Below are positions 2,561 through 8,616 of a stretch of 23,213 bases of DNA, in pieces. The translations under genes were made by a program, and so were the position numbers. The notes beneath the pieces are model-generated. The model was not told where the DNA came from and made no database searches. It worked only from the letters and a program-made list of their open reading frames with translations. The first letter of the stretch is position 1, and each line of letters begins with the position of its first letter. Origin of the DNA: a virus; IMG/VR virus record IMGVR_UViG_3300005056_000078, positions 1 to 23,213 of that record. One strand, written 5' to 3'.

Positions 2561-2653
2561 ATGTCTTTCATGAAACTACCACCACCTGAAATAGGGTACA
2601 AGATATTCTTTGTAGTGCTTACACTTACTGCTCTTATCTTATCAGCCTATTAA
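2561..2653 (+). CDS. very small single-pass membrane protein (30 aa)
   Basis: A 30-residue frame starts one base after the previous stop. It begins MSFMKLPPPEIGYK and finishes with a single helix (IFFVVLTLTALILSAY). Position between two good genes and the obvious transmembrane segment support translation. It could be a holin-like or regulatory membrane peptide, but nothing decides this. Confidence 0.5.
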   Translation: MSFMKLPPPEIGYKIFFVVLTLTALILSAY

Positions 2654-2673
2654 TAATTCATTAGGAGAAACTT

Positions 2674-4035
2674 ATGAAATTATTTGATGACCAACTACTT
2701 GTGCTTGAACAGTTTGACGAGTGGCTGAACAATAGCAATGAAACTGTTTGTGGTTTGTTTGCTAGTGCAGGATTTGGTAAGTCGTACAGTATGAAGTCAT
2801 TGATTGATGAAGTTATTATAAAGAATAGTAACTACAATCCAGTGCTTACAAGTATGACTCATAGTGCTGTTGAAGTACTTAAAGATTTCACTGGTTTAAC
2901 CGTAACAACATTACATAGCCTTATGGGTTGGGTTCCTTATATTGATAAAGAAACTGGCGAAGAAGGCTTATCAACTCCTAAGATGCGGGATAAGAGTGCC
3001 GAGTCCAAACTAGAATCTACTGACTTATTATTAGTAGATGAAGCAGGGTTAACTGGGCATGACGAGTTAGCTTTATTGCTTGCAGAGGCAGCCGAGGTAG
3101 GATTCCGTATACTATTTGTTGGTGATTATAAACAGTGCTTCCCAGTAGTAAGGGAAGGGCAAAGACTTTGTGTACCAGCTTATGAATATACTAAAGAGCA
3201 TGGTACGTGGTTAAAGCTAGACATTCCTAAACGTGTAGACGAAGGGGATATGATTTACAAGCTTTCACTAGCATACCGCGCAGCAGTAGATGGTGCTAAA
3301 CAACCAAACCTACAGACAGCCCTTAACAAAGGCTCGAACAAAGGTGTGCGTGTAGTAGATGATATTGAAGAGTTAGCTTATAGAGCTTTCGCGGCTGGCA
3401 TTCGCGATGGTAATACAAGAAATATTAAAGTATTGGCATATACTAACAAACGATGCCTAACTCTGAACCGTAAGATTCGTAAGAAGATTATGGGGCATAA
3501 AGACCCTACTCCTACCGTTGGAGAAGAGATGGTTGCTAACACAGCTATCACTGATGTTTCTGGTGATGTTATCATTAGAAACAACAGCCTACTAACCGTG
3601 ACAGGTGTAGAGAAAACTACTAGTCATGGATTAGATGGTGCATTCATGCAATTCAATGACCGTGATGGTGAACCTATTGAAGAAATAGTATTCGTACCAT
3701 CTACACCTCAAAAGTTACTTGACCGTCTAAAGAAACTATCTAACGAAGCTAAGGCTATGAAAGCTAATGGCTTTGAAGAAGAGTCTCGTATGGCTTGGCG
3801 TAGCTTCTTTAGTCTTAAAGAGGGTTGTGCTGATATAAGATATACCTATGCAATGACTGTCAATAAGAGCCAAGGGATTACTCTTAAACACTCTTTAGTT
3901 GATATATGTGACATAGATGCCTGTCGTGACCATGAACAGAAAGTTCGTATGATTTACACAGCCATAACTAGAGCCACAGATTTTGTGACTATAGAAGGTG
4001 AGGTGACCAGTGAGCCGACTAACAACAGACCATAG
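2674..4035 (+). CDS. SF1 DNA helicase, Dda/RecD-like (453 aa)
   Basis: An ATP-driven superfamily 1 helicase. Motif I is FASAGFGKS (Lys36), motif Ia is near TSMTHSAVEVL, motif II is LLLVDEAGL (Asp122, Glu123) and motif III is GDYKQCFPV (150-158). The C-terminal UvrD/RecD2 half has TVNKSQG (from 395) and YTAITRA (428-434, motif VI Arg). Length matches T4 Dda (about 440 aa). The first Gly of the usual GxAGxGKS loop is Ala. Dda-type helicases remodel stalled forks and help start origin or recombination-dependent replication. The gene follows the standard GGAGAAACTT leader, and its last 26 bases overlap the start of the homing-endonuclease-like gene. A processive DnaB/gp4-type helicase is not seen in the window. 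Confidence 0.93.
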   Translation: MKLFDDQLLVLEQFDEWLNNSNETVCGLFASAGFGKSYSMKSLIDEVIIKNSNYNPVLTSMTHSAVEVLKDFTGLTVTTLHSLMGWVPYIDKETGEEGLSTPKMRDKSAESKLESTDLLLVDEAGLTGHDELALLLAEAAEVGFRILFVGDYKQCFPVVREGQRLCVPAYEYTKEHGTWLKLDIPKRVDEGDMIYKLSLAYRAAVDGAKQPNLQTALNKGSNKGVRVVDDIEELAYRAFAAGIRDGNTRNIKVLAYTNKRCLTLNRKIRKKIMGHKDPTPTVGEEMVANTAITDVSGDVIIRNNSLLTVTGVEKTTSHGLDGAFMQFNDRDGEPIEEIVFVPSTPQKLLDRLKKLSNEAKAMKANGFEEESRMAWRSFFSLKEGCADIRYTYAMTVNKSQGITLKHSLVDICDIDACRDHEQKVRMIYTAITRATDFVTIEGEVTSEPTNNRP

Positions 4036-4441
4036 TTATAGACTACCTTGTGGCAAACGTAAACGTTACAAACTGTCAAGATGTTGGTCTAATATGAAAG
4101 AACGGGCAAAAGGTCGGGAATACTGTGAAGTATACCTTGACTGGCTGGACTATGAAAAGTTCCATGCTTGGGCTTGGGCTAATGGTTACAAGGAAGGACT
4201 AACACTTTGCAGAACTGGAGATATAGGTAACTACGAACCTAGTAATGTAAGGTGGGACACTCAAGCTAGTAACACCATAGAAGCACAATCAAAGACTTAC
4301 AAGTTTATGTTAGGAGATATAGAAATTAAAATATGTAACCTAGCTAAGTACTGTAAGTCACATGGATTAAACGCTTCCCATATGTCAAGAGTACACAGTG
4401 GAAAACTAACTCAACATAAGGGATACACTAAAGAGAACTAA
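4010..4441 (+). CDS. putative HNH-type homing endonuclease (143 aa)
   Basis: The GTG at 4010, behind GAGGTGA, gives a 143-residue protein overlapping the helicase end. The pattern is that of free-standing phage homing endonucleases: an N-terminal RCWSNMKERAKG and YLDWLDYEKFHAWAWANGY region, then GLTLCRTGDIGNYEPSNVRWDT (the usual family form is LxRIDNDGNYEPxNCRW), then a C-terminal DNA-binding helix-turn-helix of the NUMOD type (LAKYCKSHGLNASHMSRVHSGK...HKGY). The start must be upstream of the internal Met28 to include the conserved WxxM segment. The normal Asp after LTL(D)R is Cys here, so activity is uncertain. Such genes cut and spread into intron- or gene-less alleles. Confidence 0.72.
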   Translation: MSRLTTDHSYRLPCGKRKRYKLSRCWSNMKERAKGREYCEVYLDWLDYEKFHAWAWANGYKEGLTLCRTGDIGNYEPSNVRWDTQASNTIEAQSKTYKFMLGDIEIKICNLAKYCKSHGLNASHMSRVHSGKLTQHKGYTKEN

Positions 4442-4442
4442 C

Positions 4443-4541
4443 ATGATAACTAAAACTAGAGTCAAAGTATTCTTTATAATGGCAATACTGACACTACTCA
4501 TAACTTACACTACATTAGTGGAGTTCCATAACCTATTTTAA
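4443..4541 (+). CDS. small membrane protein (32 aa)
   Basis: ATG 4443 lies two bases after the previous stop, behind GAGAACTAAC. The product starts MITKTRVKVFFIMAILTLLI and is basic N-terminally followed by a single hydrophobic helix, which predicts a type II or N-in orientation. No family. The downstream sequence AATGCCTTTACTCTAGG is repeated in slightly altered form at 5228-5245. Confidence 0.5.
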   Translation: MITKTRVKVFFIMAILTLLITYTTLVEFHNLF

Positions 4542-4564
4542 TGCCTTTACTCTAGGAGAAACCT

Positions 4565-5221
4565 ATGAAGCGCGAAATAGAAAACAGACCTAAGCAAATG
4601 TACGATGAAAAGTTCTTGGCAAGTGAATCCAAACCCAAGTTCGATGAATCAGAACTAGATGGTATGTTTGATATGCCAACTAACATGCCTACAATGGAGA
4701 TGTTAGCTAGTGCTGGATTGTCACCAACTGGGCGCAAACGCTCCGCTATCGATAAGCAGCTAATGTACATGCATGGTGCTAGCCCAAGACAAATGGGCAA
4801 GAGCCTACAGCAGACCTTACAAGTTGATATGGCTAAAGCTGAACAGCTAATGAAAGAATTTACTAGCTCTAACTTATGTCAAGAGTTATACCTTGATAAA
4901 ACATCTAAACCTTGCCAATTAGCAGAAATGCTTGGCTTCCCTAAATACAACAACACTAAACTAACTGGAATTAAAGAGAAACCTATGTCATTAAAAGTAA
5001 CACGCCCTGTATTAATCGGCACAGTAAACATCTTAACCGCACAAACATTTGAACTTGATGCTATCATCCGTGAAGCACAACTACAAATTAAAGCAAATGA
5101 AGATTTGCAAGAACTATCTCAGCATCATAAGAACATGAAAACTGAGCTAGAAGAAGTAATCAAGTTATGTGTTGAACAGCTTGACAAAGGTCTAGAGAAG
5201 AAAGAAAGCTTAGTCTCTTAA
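4565..5221 (+). CDS. hypothetical protein, apparent two-part fusion (218 aa)
   Basis: The start at 4565 follows the recurrent CTAGGAGAAACCT leader. Residues 1-140 are polar, Met-rich and helix-prone (FDESELDGMFDMPTNMPTMEML; SPRQMGKSLQQTLQV). Residues 141-218 (MSLKVTRPVLIGTVNILTAQ and on) contain a beta-prone start and a long charged helix (residues about 170-215, a possible coiled coil). The junction codons spell a second copy of the genome's gene-start leader (AAAGAGAAACCTATG, ATG at 4985, in frame). So the gene may be a fusion of two former genes or may produce a second 78-residue protein. No known domain. Confidence 0.7.
   Translation: MKREIENRPKQMYDEKFLASESKPKFDESELDGMFDMPTNMPTMEMLASAGLSPTGRKRSAIDKQLMYMHGASPRQMGKSLQQTLQVDMAKAEQLMKEFTSSNLCQELYLDKTSKPCQLAEMLGFPKYNNTKLTGIKEKPMSLKVTRPVLIGTVNILTAQTFELDAIIREAQLQIKANEDLQELSQHHKNMKTELEEVIKLCVEQLDKGLEKKESLVS
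4973..4987 (+). promoter_or_regulatory. internal ribosome binding site and in-frame start within the 218-aa gene
   Basis: AAAGAGAAACCTATG matches the leader found in front of many genes here (for example before 4565, 21174 and 22694). ATG 4985 is codon 141 of the enclosing gene, so initiation here would yield residues 141-218 as a separate 78-residue protein ending at 5221. Confidence 0.55.
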
Positions 5222-5565: not shown

Positions 5566-5569
5566 GCTG

Positions 5570-6107
5570 TTATTGAGTATTGCTAGCCAGCGCAATTAAA
5601 GATTAACTGGTACATGGCGGTGTGATTCCGCGTGGGTGTGACGAAGTAACCTTACAAGCCCTCGTGCTTGAATAATAAAGTCAAATCTCGCTAGTGGGAG
5701 GATAAACTAACTAGCCACCTTTATAAGGGTGGTCTTGAGGCAATGAAGCGAACTGAGGCAATACTTAGTAGGCGCAGGGATAGGCTAGTATGGTAACGTA
5801 CTAGTCGATAGCCTCTAAACAGGCTCGCACTATGTAAGTGGAATAAAACTACGGCATACCCTACCAGAGGTTCATATCGGTTAGAATCCGAGTTGTCGCA
5901 AGCTATTTAGATACCGTGAGTGCATACGATAAAACTGTCGAGGTAGGACATAAAACCTATGGTGAGCCACACTTGAATGGTATGTTATAGTTTATCTACA
6001 TAAGTTCAGAAGAGAAAATGTAGACTCAATAATGAGTATAACAATGTACGCGTATCCTCCCAGCGAATGAGGTGTAGACTGTCCAGCTATGGGAAGGTCT
6101 TTAAAAA
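5570..6107 (+). ncRNA. candidate large structured noncoding RNA 1
   Basis: No plausible gene occurs in about 590 bases, while paired elements are dense. They include CAAGC/GCTTG around 5655-5670; GCTAGT (5690-5695)/ACTAGC (5709-5714); CCACC/GGTGG beside it; CTAGTA (5785-5790)/TACTAG (5799-5804) inside AGGCTA/TAGCCT; CACT/AGTG near 5828; TCGG-TTAGAAT-CCGA near 5877-5891; long-range CCTACC/GGTAGG (about 5860 with 5942); and a three-way junction at 5983-6043. A nine-base direct repeat TGAGGCAAT occurs at 5736 and 5754. Boundaries and strand are inferred: neighbouring genes are all on +. Size fits the ROOL/GOLLD type of phage RNA, but no consensus match was verified. Confidence 0.55.
5983..6043 (+). 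other. three-way helical junction within ncRNA candidate 1
   Basis: Closing helix TGTTATA (5983-5989)/TATAACA (6037-6043), seven perfect pairs. It encloses TCTACAT (5995-6001)/ATGTAGA (6018-6024), seven perfect pairs, and a small stem CTC/GAG (6025-6027/6034-6036) with loop AATAAT. The nesting is consistent and leaves short single-stranded joins, as expected for a folded RNA. Confidence 0.6.
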
Positions 6108-6152
6108 AGTAAATAGCAACTAATTTAACTAACTATTGATTGGAGGTATATC

Positions 6153-7133
6153 ATGCCTAACCAAAACTACGCTGCTGATGGTTCAGTCCTAAGTGGTTCT
6201 GTGTGGGTAAAGCAAGATATACTCTCACTGTTGAAGTTGAATAACTTACCAAAAGGCTTAGTTGGACTTAACACTAAACTAGGTCTAGCAGAGGTCATTC
6301 AAAAGGAAGGCAAGAAAGCAGTATTTATGAAACTCGGAAAGCTACTTAACCAACAAGGTCTGGAAGAGAAGCAAGTAAGAGAGTCTAGCCAGATACTAAC
6401 AGAATTGAAGATACTGCATACACAGGAAGTGTCCTTTGCATATACTGAGGAAGAAATCCTTAGAGTATACCAAGAAGGACCAAGTGCTTGCATGGCTAAT
6501 TGTGAATCAGTTGCACTATATTCCAATGACTATACAGCTGTTGCTTACCTAGAAGTTAAGGGTAAGATACTAGCCAGAACTGTAATATGTAGAGATAAAG
6601 AAATAGGTCTTTCTTATAACTCTTTGTATGGGTTTGGTGAACCACTTGCTAAGATGTTGGAAGAACTAGGTTATACTAGTGGAGACTTAGAGGGTTGCTA
6701 TTTACCACTAAGGCATGACCACCTAGGCAGGATAATGTGTCCTTACATAGATGGTACTAATTATATAACTGTAGAAGGTGATGAAATATCTATTTCTAGC
6801 GATGGTGAATACCAAGCAGATAGTACTGATGGTATCTTAGTGGAGCATACTTGTGATGAATGTCACGAAACGTTACTAAGAGATGAAGTTTATTACTCGG
6901 AGCATAGTGAACAGAACTTATGTGAGGGCTGTCACGAGGTCCATCATGTCTATATAGATGGAGAAAGTTATCACAAAGAAAGTGACTCTGTACAGGAACT
7001 AGAAGATGATAGTTATGTATTATCAGAAGATGCCGAGTACCTAGAGTATAGGAATGAATGGCACTTATTAGAAGATTGTGCATATAACAATTATGATGAA
7101 GTGTACATACTTAAAGAAGATTTAGATTTGTAA
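6153..7133 (+). CDS. probable zinc-binding phage protein (326 aa), between two structured RNA candidates
   Basis: ATG 6153 follows an excellent ribosome binding site (TTGGAGGT). Residues 1-95 are helical. Residues 97-180 contain VYQEGPSACMA and SVALYSNDYTAVAYLEVKGKILAR with LAKMLEELGY, a pattern I associate with uncharacterised phage proteins. Residues 234-260 carry CDEC...CEGC (Cys234, 237, 257, 260), a CxxC-x19-CxxC zinc site. The tail (280-326) is acidic and aromatic, with three short repeats of the type Y/H-x-L-x-E-D (SYVLSED, EWHLLED, VYILKED). Function unknown. Its place alone between two noncoding structured stretches allows a role with those RNAs, but this is inference. Confidence 0.8.
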   Translation: MPNQNYAADGSVLSGSVWVKQDILSLLKLNNLPKGLVGLNTKLGLAEVIQKEGKKAVFMKLGKLLNQQGLEEKQVRESSQILTELKILHTQEVSFAYTEEEILRVYQEGPSACMANCESVALYSNDYTAVAYLEVKGKILARTVICRDKEIGLSYNSLYGFGEPLAKMLEELGYTSGDLEGCYLPLRHDHLGRIMCPYIDGTNYITVEGDEISISSDGEYQADSTDGILVEHTCDECHETLLRDEVYYSEHSEQNLCEGCHEVHHVYIDGESYHKESDSVQELEDDSYVLSEDAEYLEYRNEWHLLEDCAYNNYDEVYILKEDLDL

Positions 7134-7353
7134 AGAATTCCTTTGTTGGATAATCCCGACAGGACGACGTAGGTATGGAGGCGTGGTTAAATAAACTCGA
7201 TGCAAATGGTTGCAGAAACCCACGTAATGGTGAAACACTAGCGCACTACTCAGGAGTCGGTGCATAAACTGACTGCTCTTATAGAACTTCGTGTGTCTAT
7301 GGTTCGCATACCTTAAGTGTCGATTAGTATCCGTAAGATACTACCAATATTAT

Positions 7354-7426
7354 GTTGTGGTAGCTCAGTTTGGCAGAGCAGTGGGGAATATCCCATTGGA
7401 CACTGGTTCGAATCCAGTTCACGACT
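7354..7426 (+). tRNA. tRNA-like element with abnormal anticodon loop (possibly degenerate or non-decoding)
   Basis: All tRNA arms are present. Acceptor GTTGTGG/TCACGAC pairs at 7/7 (two G-T). The D arm is GCTC-AGTTTGGCA-GAGC with the conserved GG. The anticodon stem is GTGGG/CCCAT, the variable loop is TGGAC, and the T arm ACTGG-TTCGAAT-CCAGT is perfect. Total 73 bases, and no CCA is encoded. The anticodon loop, however, has six bases (GAATAT), or eight if the last pair opens, and has no T at position 33. So no normal anticodon can be named. It may be a decayed tRNA or a tRNA mimic that is still processed by RNase P but does not decode. Confidence 0.7.
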
Positions 7427-7507
7427 AACAAAACCGTTGGACAACTTTGAGAAGGAACCAAAGCGGATAATTAGGTTGTAAGCCCTAAGAGAGCTATGTA
7501 TGAAAAG

Positions 7508-7575
7508 CTAACCAAATGAAGGTTAGTAAAGCGTGACACTGACGAGTGTTAGGTAGACGGCTAACATTTGGTTAG
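7508..7575 (+). other. long hairpin within ncRNA candidate 2
   Basis: CTAACCAAATG (7508-7518) and CATTTGGTTAG (7565-7575) pair perfectly over eleven positions. GTTAG (7522-7526) and CTAA (7561-7564) can extend it, and an inner hairpin ACACT-GACG-AGTGT lies at 7536-7549. Confidence 0.65.
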
Positions 7576-7600
7576 TTATATCTACAAATAGCAGCTAACT

Positions 7601-7722
7601 TATATTATCAAGCACACTCACGAGTAAGGTTCAAGTCCTTACCAAGCATACGACCTCTAGTTATGTTTACTCCGTTTCATGAAGCTATTCCTTTATGTAT
7701 GTCGAGTGTGTTTGATAATATA
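7601..7722 (+). other. 19-pair long-range stem closing a multibranch domain with a T-loop hairpin
   Basis: TATATTATCAAGCACACTC (7601-7619) pairs with GAGTGTGTTTGATAATATA (7704-7722): 18 Watson-Crick pairs and one G-T. Inside, GTAAGG-TTCAAGT-CCTTAC (7624-7642) is a perfect six-pair hairpin whose seven-base loop fits the tRNA T-loop consensus TTCRANY. CATAC (7647-7651) can pair with GTATG (7697-7701). Confidence 0.7.
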
Positions 7723-7856
7723 CGCTAGCGTGGTTATCACAGAACCTACATCTAGCAAATGAGTTGCTTAGTCCTAGTTAAAGGACTGTCCCGACGATAA
7801 TAAAAGGATAACAAGTTATGTTAAGGTGAATAGTGACCGTTTAGATTCGATAACAT

Positions 7857-7895
7857 TCCCTGCCCTACAAGGTAGATAATAGCCGCTGGCAGGGA
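7857..7895 (+). other. stem-loop domain within ncRNA candidate 2
   Basis: TCCCTGCC (7857-7864) pairs perfectly with GGCAGGGA (7888-7895). A nested hairpin CTAC-AAG-GTAG sits directly on it (7865-7875), consistent with coaxial stacking. Confidence 0.6.
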
Positions 7896-7905
7896 TAATA
7901 GAGTA

Positions 7906-7977
7906 TACTTGTAGTTAGGCATTAGTCTGGTGAGAACCAGTAATGCAGTGGAGCAAACTAGTGCCGAACTACAAGTA
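7906..7977 (+). other. 3'-terminal domain of ncRNA candidate 2 with GNRA tetraloop
   Basis: TACTTGTAGTT (7906-7916) and AACTACAAGTA (7967-7977) form eleven perfect pairs. GGCA/TGCC (7918-7921/7962-7965) can extend it. Nested inside are GCATT (7919-7923)/AATGC (7942-7946) and CTGGT-GAGA-ACCAG (7927-7940), a five-pair stem with a GNRA-type loop. GGCA and GCATT overlap and are alternatives. Confidence 0.65.
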
Positions 7978-8033
7978 CCCTTTACTTGAAATAGAGCAAC
8001 CTCGCTCACAATCTTTATATAGAGAGATAGAAA

Positions 8034-8378
8034 ATGTCTAATAAAACCCCTAAAACTACAATCCAAGAAATCTTTGGTAAATTCGCAGTACAAGTTGAAG
8101 ATGGCGAAGTAAAATTATTTGTTACTTTAAAAGAAGCTACTGCCGTAGAAACTGAGTTCCTTAAAGGTGCTGAGTTCCGTGATGAAGCTGCTGCTTTCTG
8201 CGCCAACCAAGGTATTGAAGGTAAGAATGCTAAGTCTAAGACTAACATCTTAGTAGCCTACTTCTCATGGGTAGAAGCTGGCAAGCCAGAAGCTCCAGTA
8301 GTTGAAGAAACTCCAGTAGTTGAAGACGAAGCTGTTGCTGCAGAAGCTGTTGCTGATGATTCAGAAGTAGAATTCTAA
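8034..8378 (+). CDS. small acidic-tailed protein, SSB-like C-terminal tip (114 aa)
   Basis: ATG 8034 lies behind AGAGATAGAAA. Residues 1-80 form a compact mixed domain (IQEIFGKFAVQVEDGEVKLFVTLKEATAVETEFLKGAEF...NILVAYFSWVEAG). Residues 83-114 are a Pro/Val/Ala/Glu-rich acidic tail with an imperfect repeat (PVVEETPVVEDE) ending DDSEVEF. The tail type, acidic with a final Phe, is that of SSB and T7 gp2.5, where it binds partner proteins and mimics DNA. A strong terminator follows and a long structured transcript precedes it. Function unknown. A DNA- or RNA-binding accessory protein is a reasonable guess. Confidence 0.8.
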   Translation: MSNKTPKTTIQEIFGKFAVQVEDGEVKLFVTLKEATAVETEFLKGAEFRDEAAAFCANQGIEGKNAKSKTNILVAYFSWVEAGKPEAPVVEETPVVEDEAVAAEAVADDSEVEF

Positions 8379-8391
8379 ACCAACCAGTAAT

Positions 8392-8425
8392 TGAATAAAA
8401 CCTAGCTAATGCTAGGTTTTATTCA
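8392..8425 (+). terminator. strong intrinsic terminator after the acidic-tailed gene
   Basis: TGAATAAAACCTAG (8392-8405) and CTAGGTTTTATTCA (8412-8425) form a perfect 14-pair stem around CTAATG. The A-run/T-run within the stem is typical of bidirectional terminators. It starts 13 bases after the stop codon. Confidence 0.9.
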
Positions 8426-8583
8426 GGTGGGTGCGCTCCTGATACGTAAGGCTGTATACCCCCCTACCCAGATATTTGGTGACTAGAGAAAGAATTAATG
8501 AATAATCTCAACGTACTGAAAAGGGTCGCAACCTGCGTTTCTACCTGAATAGAACTTACTAACTGAACTGACATTAACTAATT
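8426..8583 (+). other. short untranslated segment bounded by two terminators; possible small RNA or leader
   Basis: Between the terminators at 8392-8425 and 8584-8616 there is no convincing gene; the only frame with a fair ribosome site would be 16 codons from ATG 8498. GGTGGG (8426-8431) can pair with CCTACC near 8463-8468, enclosing ATAC/GTAT. A small RNA or the leader of the downstream genes is possible. I see no known riboswitch pattern. Confidence 0.3.
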
Positions 8584-8616
8584 GCTCATACCTTCTAGGT
8601 GTGGGCTTCTTTATTT
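8584..8616 (+). terminator. intrinsic terminator upstream of the tail-protein genes
   Basis: GCTCATACCT (8584-8593) pairs with AGGTGTGGGC (8597-8606), ten pairs with two G-T wobbles around a three-base loop, followed by TTCTTTATTT. It separates the short untranslated segment from the genes starting at 8637. Confidence 0.75.

Follow-up and report, generated by a model that had tools for sequence, protein, structure and literature searches.

The 900 bases at positions 7134-8033 of a phage record are, with a probability that we put at about 0.7, the gene for a large structured non-coding RNA of a class outside Rfam, which would be processed and act as a folded RNA. The record analysed here (IMG/VR record IMGVR_UViG_3300005056_000078, 23,213 nucleotides, hereafter the window) carries phage genes for DNA polymerase A, primase, exonuclease, ribonucleotide reductase and lysozyme, and the RNA gene would span roughly 600-900 bases on the same strand as the genes around it. 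Sequence comparison supports a core of ~620 nt (7354-7976), predicted to consist of a tRNA-like domain followed by a 3' domain with a long helix and a module of ~95 nt, and it is at this level that we demonstrate the structure, its conservation by compensatory change and the tRNA-like domain. We favour this reading because the + strand folds more stably than shuffled sequences (z -7.3), a related phage contig (L004) has a gap at the same place, the helices carry compensatory changes, Vibrio phage CHOED has the module too, and the tRNA-like domain keeps its position in L004 despite a decayed anticodon arm. Counted against it are the lack of the module in a second relative (L009), the lack of conserved structure in both the 5' 220 bases and the 3' terminal hairpin, and the lack of a terminator.

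To our knowledge, large ornate phage RNAs are few and have no known function. At least two assemble into cages made of RNA alone. A covarying class that Rfam lacks offers an independent case for asking if cages and the association with tRNAs are general, and one of its modules is present in a phage, CHOED, that has been isolated on V. anguillarum and sequenced.

The gene-free stretch and its relatives

Positions 7134-8033 contain no credible gene, as the first-pass annotation of this DNA had claimed, and are bounded by the stop codon of ORF 6153-7133 and the ATG at 8034. The longest ORF inside has at most 54 aa, except for antisense ORFs overlapping the next gene, and a conserved protein frame, looked for across the gap in window and L004, was not seen. 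The minimum free energy of the 900 nt was -282.6 kcal/mol on the + strand, against -230.2 +/- 7.2 kcal/mol for shuffles (0 of 20 reaching it), and the signal of the - strand was weaker (z -4.25). By piece, z was -4.6 for 7354-7584, -5.6 for 7585-7760 and -5.2 for 7761-8033, while that of 7134-7353 (-1.67) lay within the range of coding controls (12 pieces of 300 bases each, z +1.0 to -4.1); therefore, the whole fold signal comes from 7354-8033. A giant structured RNA over ~900 bases, as initially proposed, thus holds for the ~620-nt core but not for the first 220 bases, which are probably transcribed along with the rest of the stretch. Promoter-like sites in the gap region were not above chance in number, a phage-type promoter motif guessed from L004 and L009 is absent from the window, an ATAAAAC-type linker motif was no more frequent than in shuffles, and the region was found to lack a terminator at its end.

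The downstream protein of the window, used as a query, led to L004 (IMG/VR contig 3300034953_000021), which has counterparts of the window's helicase (73% identity), 114-aa protein (65%) and 218-aa protein (68%). Its gap, 1.4 kb (2582-3997), is uninterrupted and gene-free and has the same two neighbours as in the window, and at the DNA level only short blocks align. Contig 3300010883_000489 (L009) has a 1.7-kb gap at the same position, in which no homologue of the 3' module could be detected. The GTTTAGATTCGATAACA block of the module was also found in CHOED, in a gene-free gap of 1.5 kb (KJ192399, 44219-45711, equal to 3295-4787 of our extract L005) that lies in another genome context. The CHOED gap carries the same ~95-nt module and keeps the order of long hairpin, module and hairpin, but the remainder of it is unrelated to the window and no tRNA gene was found in it. 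Pieces of this gap match 11 places in CHOED's own genome, and the hairpin AAATCCGACA.TGTCTGATTT occurs close to each end of the gene-free stretch. Scans of viral contigs for relatives returned only L004, L009 and CHOED, and those of genome contigs nothing; a phage collection searched by protein and DNA yielded no close relative, and GTTTAGATTCGATAACA was found in no phage record, viral contig or GTDB genome beyond those named.

The features of the stretch, all on the + strand, are as follows.

7134..7353, +: first 220 bases of the gap; z 0.23 when aligned by structure only with L004 3110-3278
7354..7426, +: tRNA-like domain; 47.2 bits with the Rfam tRNA model; ARAGORN 'tRNA-???'
7508-7518/7565-7575, +: 11-pair helix CTAACCAAATG/CATTTGGTTAG in the minimum-energy fold; window only
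7554..7585, +: helix GTAGA/TCTAC beside conserved ACAAATAG; GTGGA/TCCAC in L004, with one double change and none broken
7601-7619/7704-7722, +: long 19-pair helix with variable interior; covariation with L004 and shuffle test
7624-7642, +: T-loop hairpin GTAAGG-TTCAAGT-CCTTAC within the interior of the long helix
7724..7756, +: conserved hairpin GCTAGCGTGGTT...AACCTACATCTAGC; 11 pairs kept in L004, with one double and one single change
7802..7898, +: conserved 3' module AAAAGGAT...GTTTAGATTCGATAACA, then a hairpin; covariance model R1, covariation and structure-only alignment (z 3.6)
7858-7864/7888-7894, +: module hairpin around CTACAAGG; compared with L004, double changes in 4 of 7 pairs
7907..7976, +: long hairpin that ends the core in the minimum-energy fold, with a GAGA (GNRA) tetraloop at 7932-7935
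7994..8033, +: probable leader of the next gene, with small hairpin GAGCAACCTCGCTC; seen in alignments, also in L004 and L009

In window, L004 and L009 alike, the gap immediately precedes gene 8034-8378 or its counterpart, and its last ~40 bases, with the small hairpin, are conserved in all three, as would suit a long cis-acting leader that controls translation or stability of this gene and uses the tRNA-like domain as a processing site. Such a leader is unlikely, since over 1.2 kb separates the CHOED module from the gene downstream of it, which is unrelated, and 900-1400 nt far exceeds the usual length of leaders. Positions 7994-8033 themselves are probably part of gene 8034-8378 rather than of the RNA.

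Compensatory changes in the 3' domain

Absence of covariation in related phages had been named beforehand as grounds for refuting a structured RNA, but the stems covary with L004, and the 19-pair helix that the first-pass annotation gave as its longest is present. Pairs were counted from an anchored structural alignment of window and L004, made with a custom script, and by direct counting. In the long helix, 18 pairs could be aligned (window 7602-7619/7704-7721, L004 3552-3569/3651-3668), of which 9 carry a double change, 2 a single one and 7 no change, and no pair is broken. A helix as long as this between the flanks was found in 0 of 2000 shuffles for either phage. The module hairpin has, besides the double changes within it, one more just outside, and the T-stem of the tRNA-like domain differs from that of L004 on both sides in 2 of 5 pairs, again with none broken. 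When the long helix, the 7724-7756 hairpin and the GTAGA/TCTAC helix were joined in one alignment of 34 pairs, all 68 cells were paired, against 33-45% with slid partners, and 11 double compensatory changes were seen, against 0-2; the variable interior of the long helix and six adjacent L004 bases had been excised from this alignment, which leaves the counted pairs unaffected.

A covariance model (R1) built from L004 and CHOED only, with the window held out, recovered window 7802-7898 at 49.7 bits (E 7e-7), far above its other matches, and structure-only alignment of window and L004 gave the long hairpin a z of 2.2 and the module hairpin one of 3.6. Together, the compensatory changes, the match of the held-out model and the order kept in CHOED indicate that the 3' domain is a conserved folded RNA. 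Both marks of a structured RNA, a fold beyond that of shuffles and compensated stems, were found. Since most of the core aligns with a single relative and the 95-nt module with one further, this covariation rests on two sequences for most helices and on three for the module. Structure-only alignment did not exceed shuffles in three places, 7134-7353, the 3' terminal hairpin and the upstream gap at 5566-6152, and therefore we claim no conserved structure for any of them.

Two details of the fold proposed at first are present in the window, but were not kept in L004: the T-loop hairpin inside the long helix, and the GNRA loop of the end domain. L004 does have a hairpin at the place of 7907-7976, formed by different pairs and with no statistical support for homology. 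L004 is also shorter than the window around 7508-7575, where the modelled 11-pair helix would cross the helix at 7554-7585, a possible pseudoknot.

The tRNA-like domain and its possible role

A tRNA-like fold had also been proposed from the sequence, and 7354-7426 indeed has complete acceptor, D and T arms with consensus D and T loops, in common with tRNA (RF00005). It differs from tRNA in an anticodon loop of 6 nt (GAATAT), in which ARAGORN took 'aata' as the anticodon, and in the lack of CCA, the next bases being TAAC. The L004 counterpart (3279-3347) scores 37.1 bits as a tRNA and was not called by ARAGORN, and its anticodon arm, being too short, would not form properly. The tRNA model thus scores both domains as a cloverleaf, but neither has a 7-nt loop with a readable anticodon. 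Given the 6-nt loop and the lack of a proper anticodon arm in L004, the tRNA-like domain probably does not decode. An elbow that is kept while the anticodon decays would be likelier in a structural or processing element than in a decoder. This points to a possible use of the tRNA carried by such RNAs for processing or structure instead of decoding.

T-arm-like hairpins recur in all the gaps, at 7407 and 7630 in the window, 3328 in L004, 4266 in the CHOED extract and 2071, 2272 and 2431 in L009. The gene-free stretch of L009 (915-2614) contains a real tRNA-Met (2379-2453) in addition to two further T-arm-like hairpins, as well as a duplicated phrase, GTGGTAGCGCACGT.AAAACGC, near 1994 and 2091.

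In the mechanism that we propose, the RNA would be transcribed together with the neighbouring + strand genes. Host RNase P and RNase Z would recognise the intact stack of acceptor and T arm and cut at the tRNA-like domain, and these cuts may free or trim the 3' domain. The stable 3' domain would then act as a folded RNA, possibly associating with itself, and not as a message or a simple antisense RNA. By analogy with GOLLD and ROOL, a scaffold or a self-assembling particle is a tentative suggestion for its role. The fullest form of this idea, in which a new giant phage RNA class builds an RNA-only self-assembled particle that displays or encloses a non-decoding tRNA-like domain and has a module mobile between unrelated phages, we regard as doubtful.

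Known large RNAs, other explanations and neighbouring elements

At gathering scores, tRNA was the sole Rfam match in the stretch, and cmscan with permissive filters gave no large RNA at a meaningful score. The ROOL model (RF03087, gathering score 99.1 bits) gave no match, while the same search found the published ROOL of plasmid pMP118 at 130 bits (E 1e-29); membership in ROOL, which the stretch resembles as a large phage RNA found near tRNAs, is thus rejected as far as the model reaches. The GOLLD model (RF02032, gathering score 150 bits) had no match at E <= 10 in the window, L004, L009, CHOED or ICP1, and on these searches, whose positive control covered ROOL only, membership in GOLLD is not supported. 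The first-pass annotation had placed the RNA among GOLLD/ROOL-type RNAs as a divergent member or a new class, and since both models were negative, the new class is the better half of that statement, membership being unsupported.

Expression of GOLLD rises during lysis. GOLLD has a variable 5' domain and a conserved 3' domain with tRNAs in the linker between them, this linker being past the middle (497-538 of 833), and forms a cage of 14 chains (PMC12286853). The stretch resembles it as a gene-free region of 0.8-1.4 kb encoded by phages, with a tRNA inside the unit or near it (tRNA-like in the gaps of window and L004, tRNA-Met in L009) and with a 3' part better conserved than the 5' part, all conserved helices here being 3' of 7354 and nothing conserved being detectable in 7134-7353. 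These features of size, tRNA position within the gap, conservation and phage context would fit a strongly diverged GOLLD with a variable 5' domain, a linker tRNA and a conserved cage-forming 3' domain (PMC12286853), and Rfam models do miss some published phage RNAs. One example is the gap beside the tRNAs of Staphylococcus phage K, where a review places a ROOL/GOLLD-like long non-coding RNA; this gap (L013 37679-38649) matched neither ROOL, GOLLD nor any other large-RNA model, and therefore Rfam may not cover all RNAs of this kind. Diverged GOLLD is nonetheless improbable, given the lack of any match at E <= 10 and a tRNA-like domain that is decayed and stands nearer the 5' end, about a quarter of the way in. 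For all its likeness to GOLLD in size, in the tRNA-like domain inside it and in the conservation of the 3' part, the RNA is most likely an unclassified one.

Vibrio phage ICP1 has an unclassified non-coding RNA of ~800 nt without orfs that is the most abundant ICP1 transcript (PMC7567579). It is alike in being unclassified, in its size and in its origin in a Vibrio phage, but it has no sequence similarity to the stretch, no tRNA, no meaningful R1 match and weak fold scores, and was rejected as a relative.

The retention of the tRNA elbow with loss of the anticodon would also be expected of a decoy against host defences that target tRNAs, carried on a stabilising RNA. We find this very improbable, as it accounts for only 73 of ~620 nt and the neighbourhood has no link to defence. 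Slightly less probable again are the remains of a decayed tRNA cluster in which foldback sequences arose by chance, to which the T-arm-like hairpins in all gaps and the damaged anticodon loops would point; decay does not leave double changes in 9 of 18 pairs while every pair stays intact, nor a module common to unrelated phages. Long near-perfect inverted repeats could also form a DNA-level structure (replication origin, cruciform or packaging site), which the stronger + strand fold signal, the G-U pairs in the helices and the tRNA-like domain make the least probable of all.

A second structured element follows gene 8034-8378, at 8379-8616 in the window, 4340-4535 in L004 and 2978-3172 in L009, and consists of a short hairpin, a long closed hairpin of ~110-140 nt and an intrinsic terminator. 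Its fold z is -5.0 in the window and -5.9 in L004, L009 has the same layout in different letters, and a search against Rfam gave no match of note. It is probably an independent small phage RNA.

On the other side of the stretch, ORF 6153-7133 encodes 326 aa with two CxxC pairs and has no Pfam or PHROG match and no match in the L004 or L009 contigs; distant homologues (~25% identical) were found in Klebsiella, Cronobacter, Acinetobacter and Rhizobium phages. This ORF was likely inserted into an originally single non-coding region. Upstream of it lies a gene-free stretch of 587 bases (5566-6152), weakly structured (z -2.2), some blocks of which recur in the 5' portion of the L004 gap (L004 2941-2986 for window 6004-6049). 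Its motif ACTCAATAATGAGTATAACAATGTAC recurs at two places of the L004 gap (2941-2986 and 3070-3098), and one of these places shows a compensatory change from ACTCA/TGAGT to AGTCA/TGACT.
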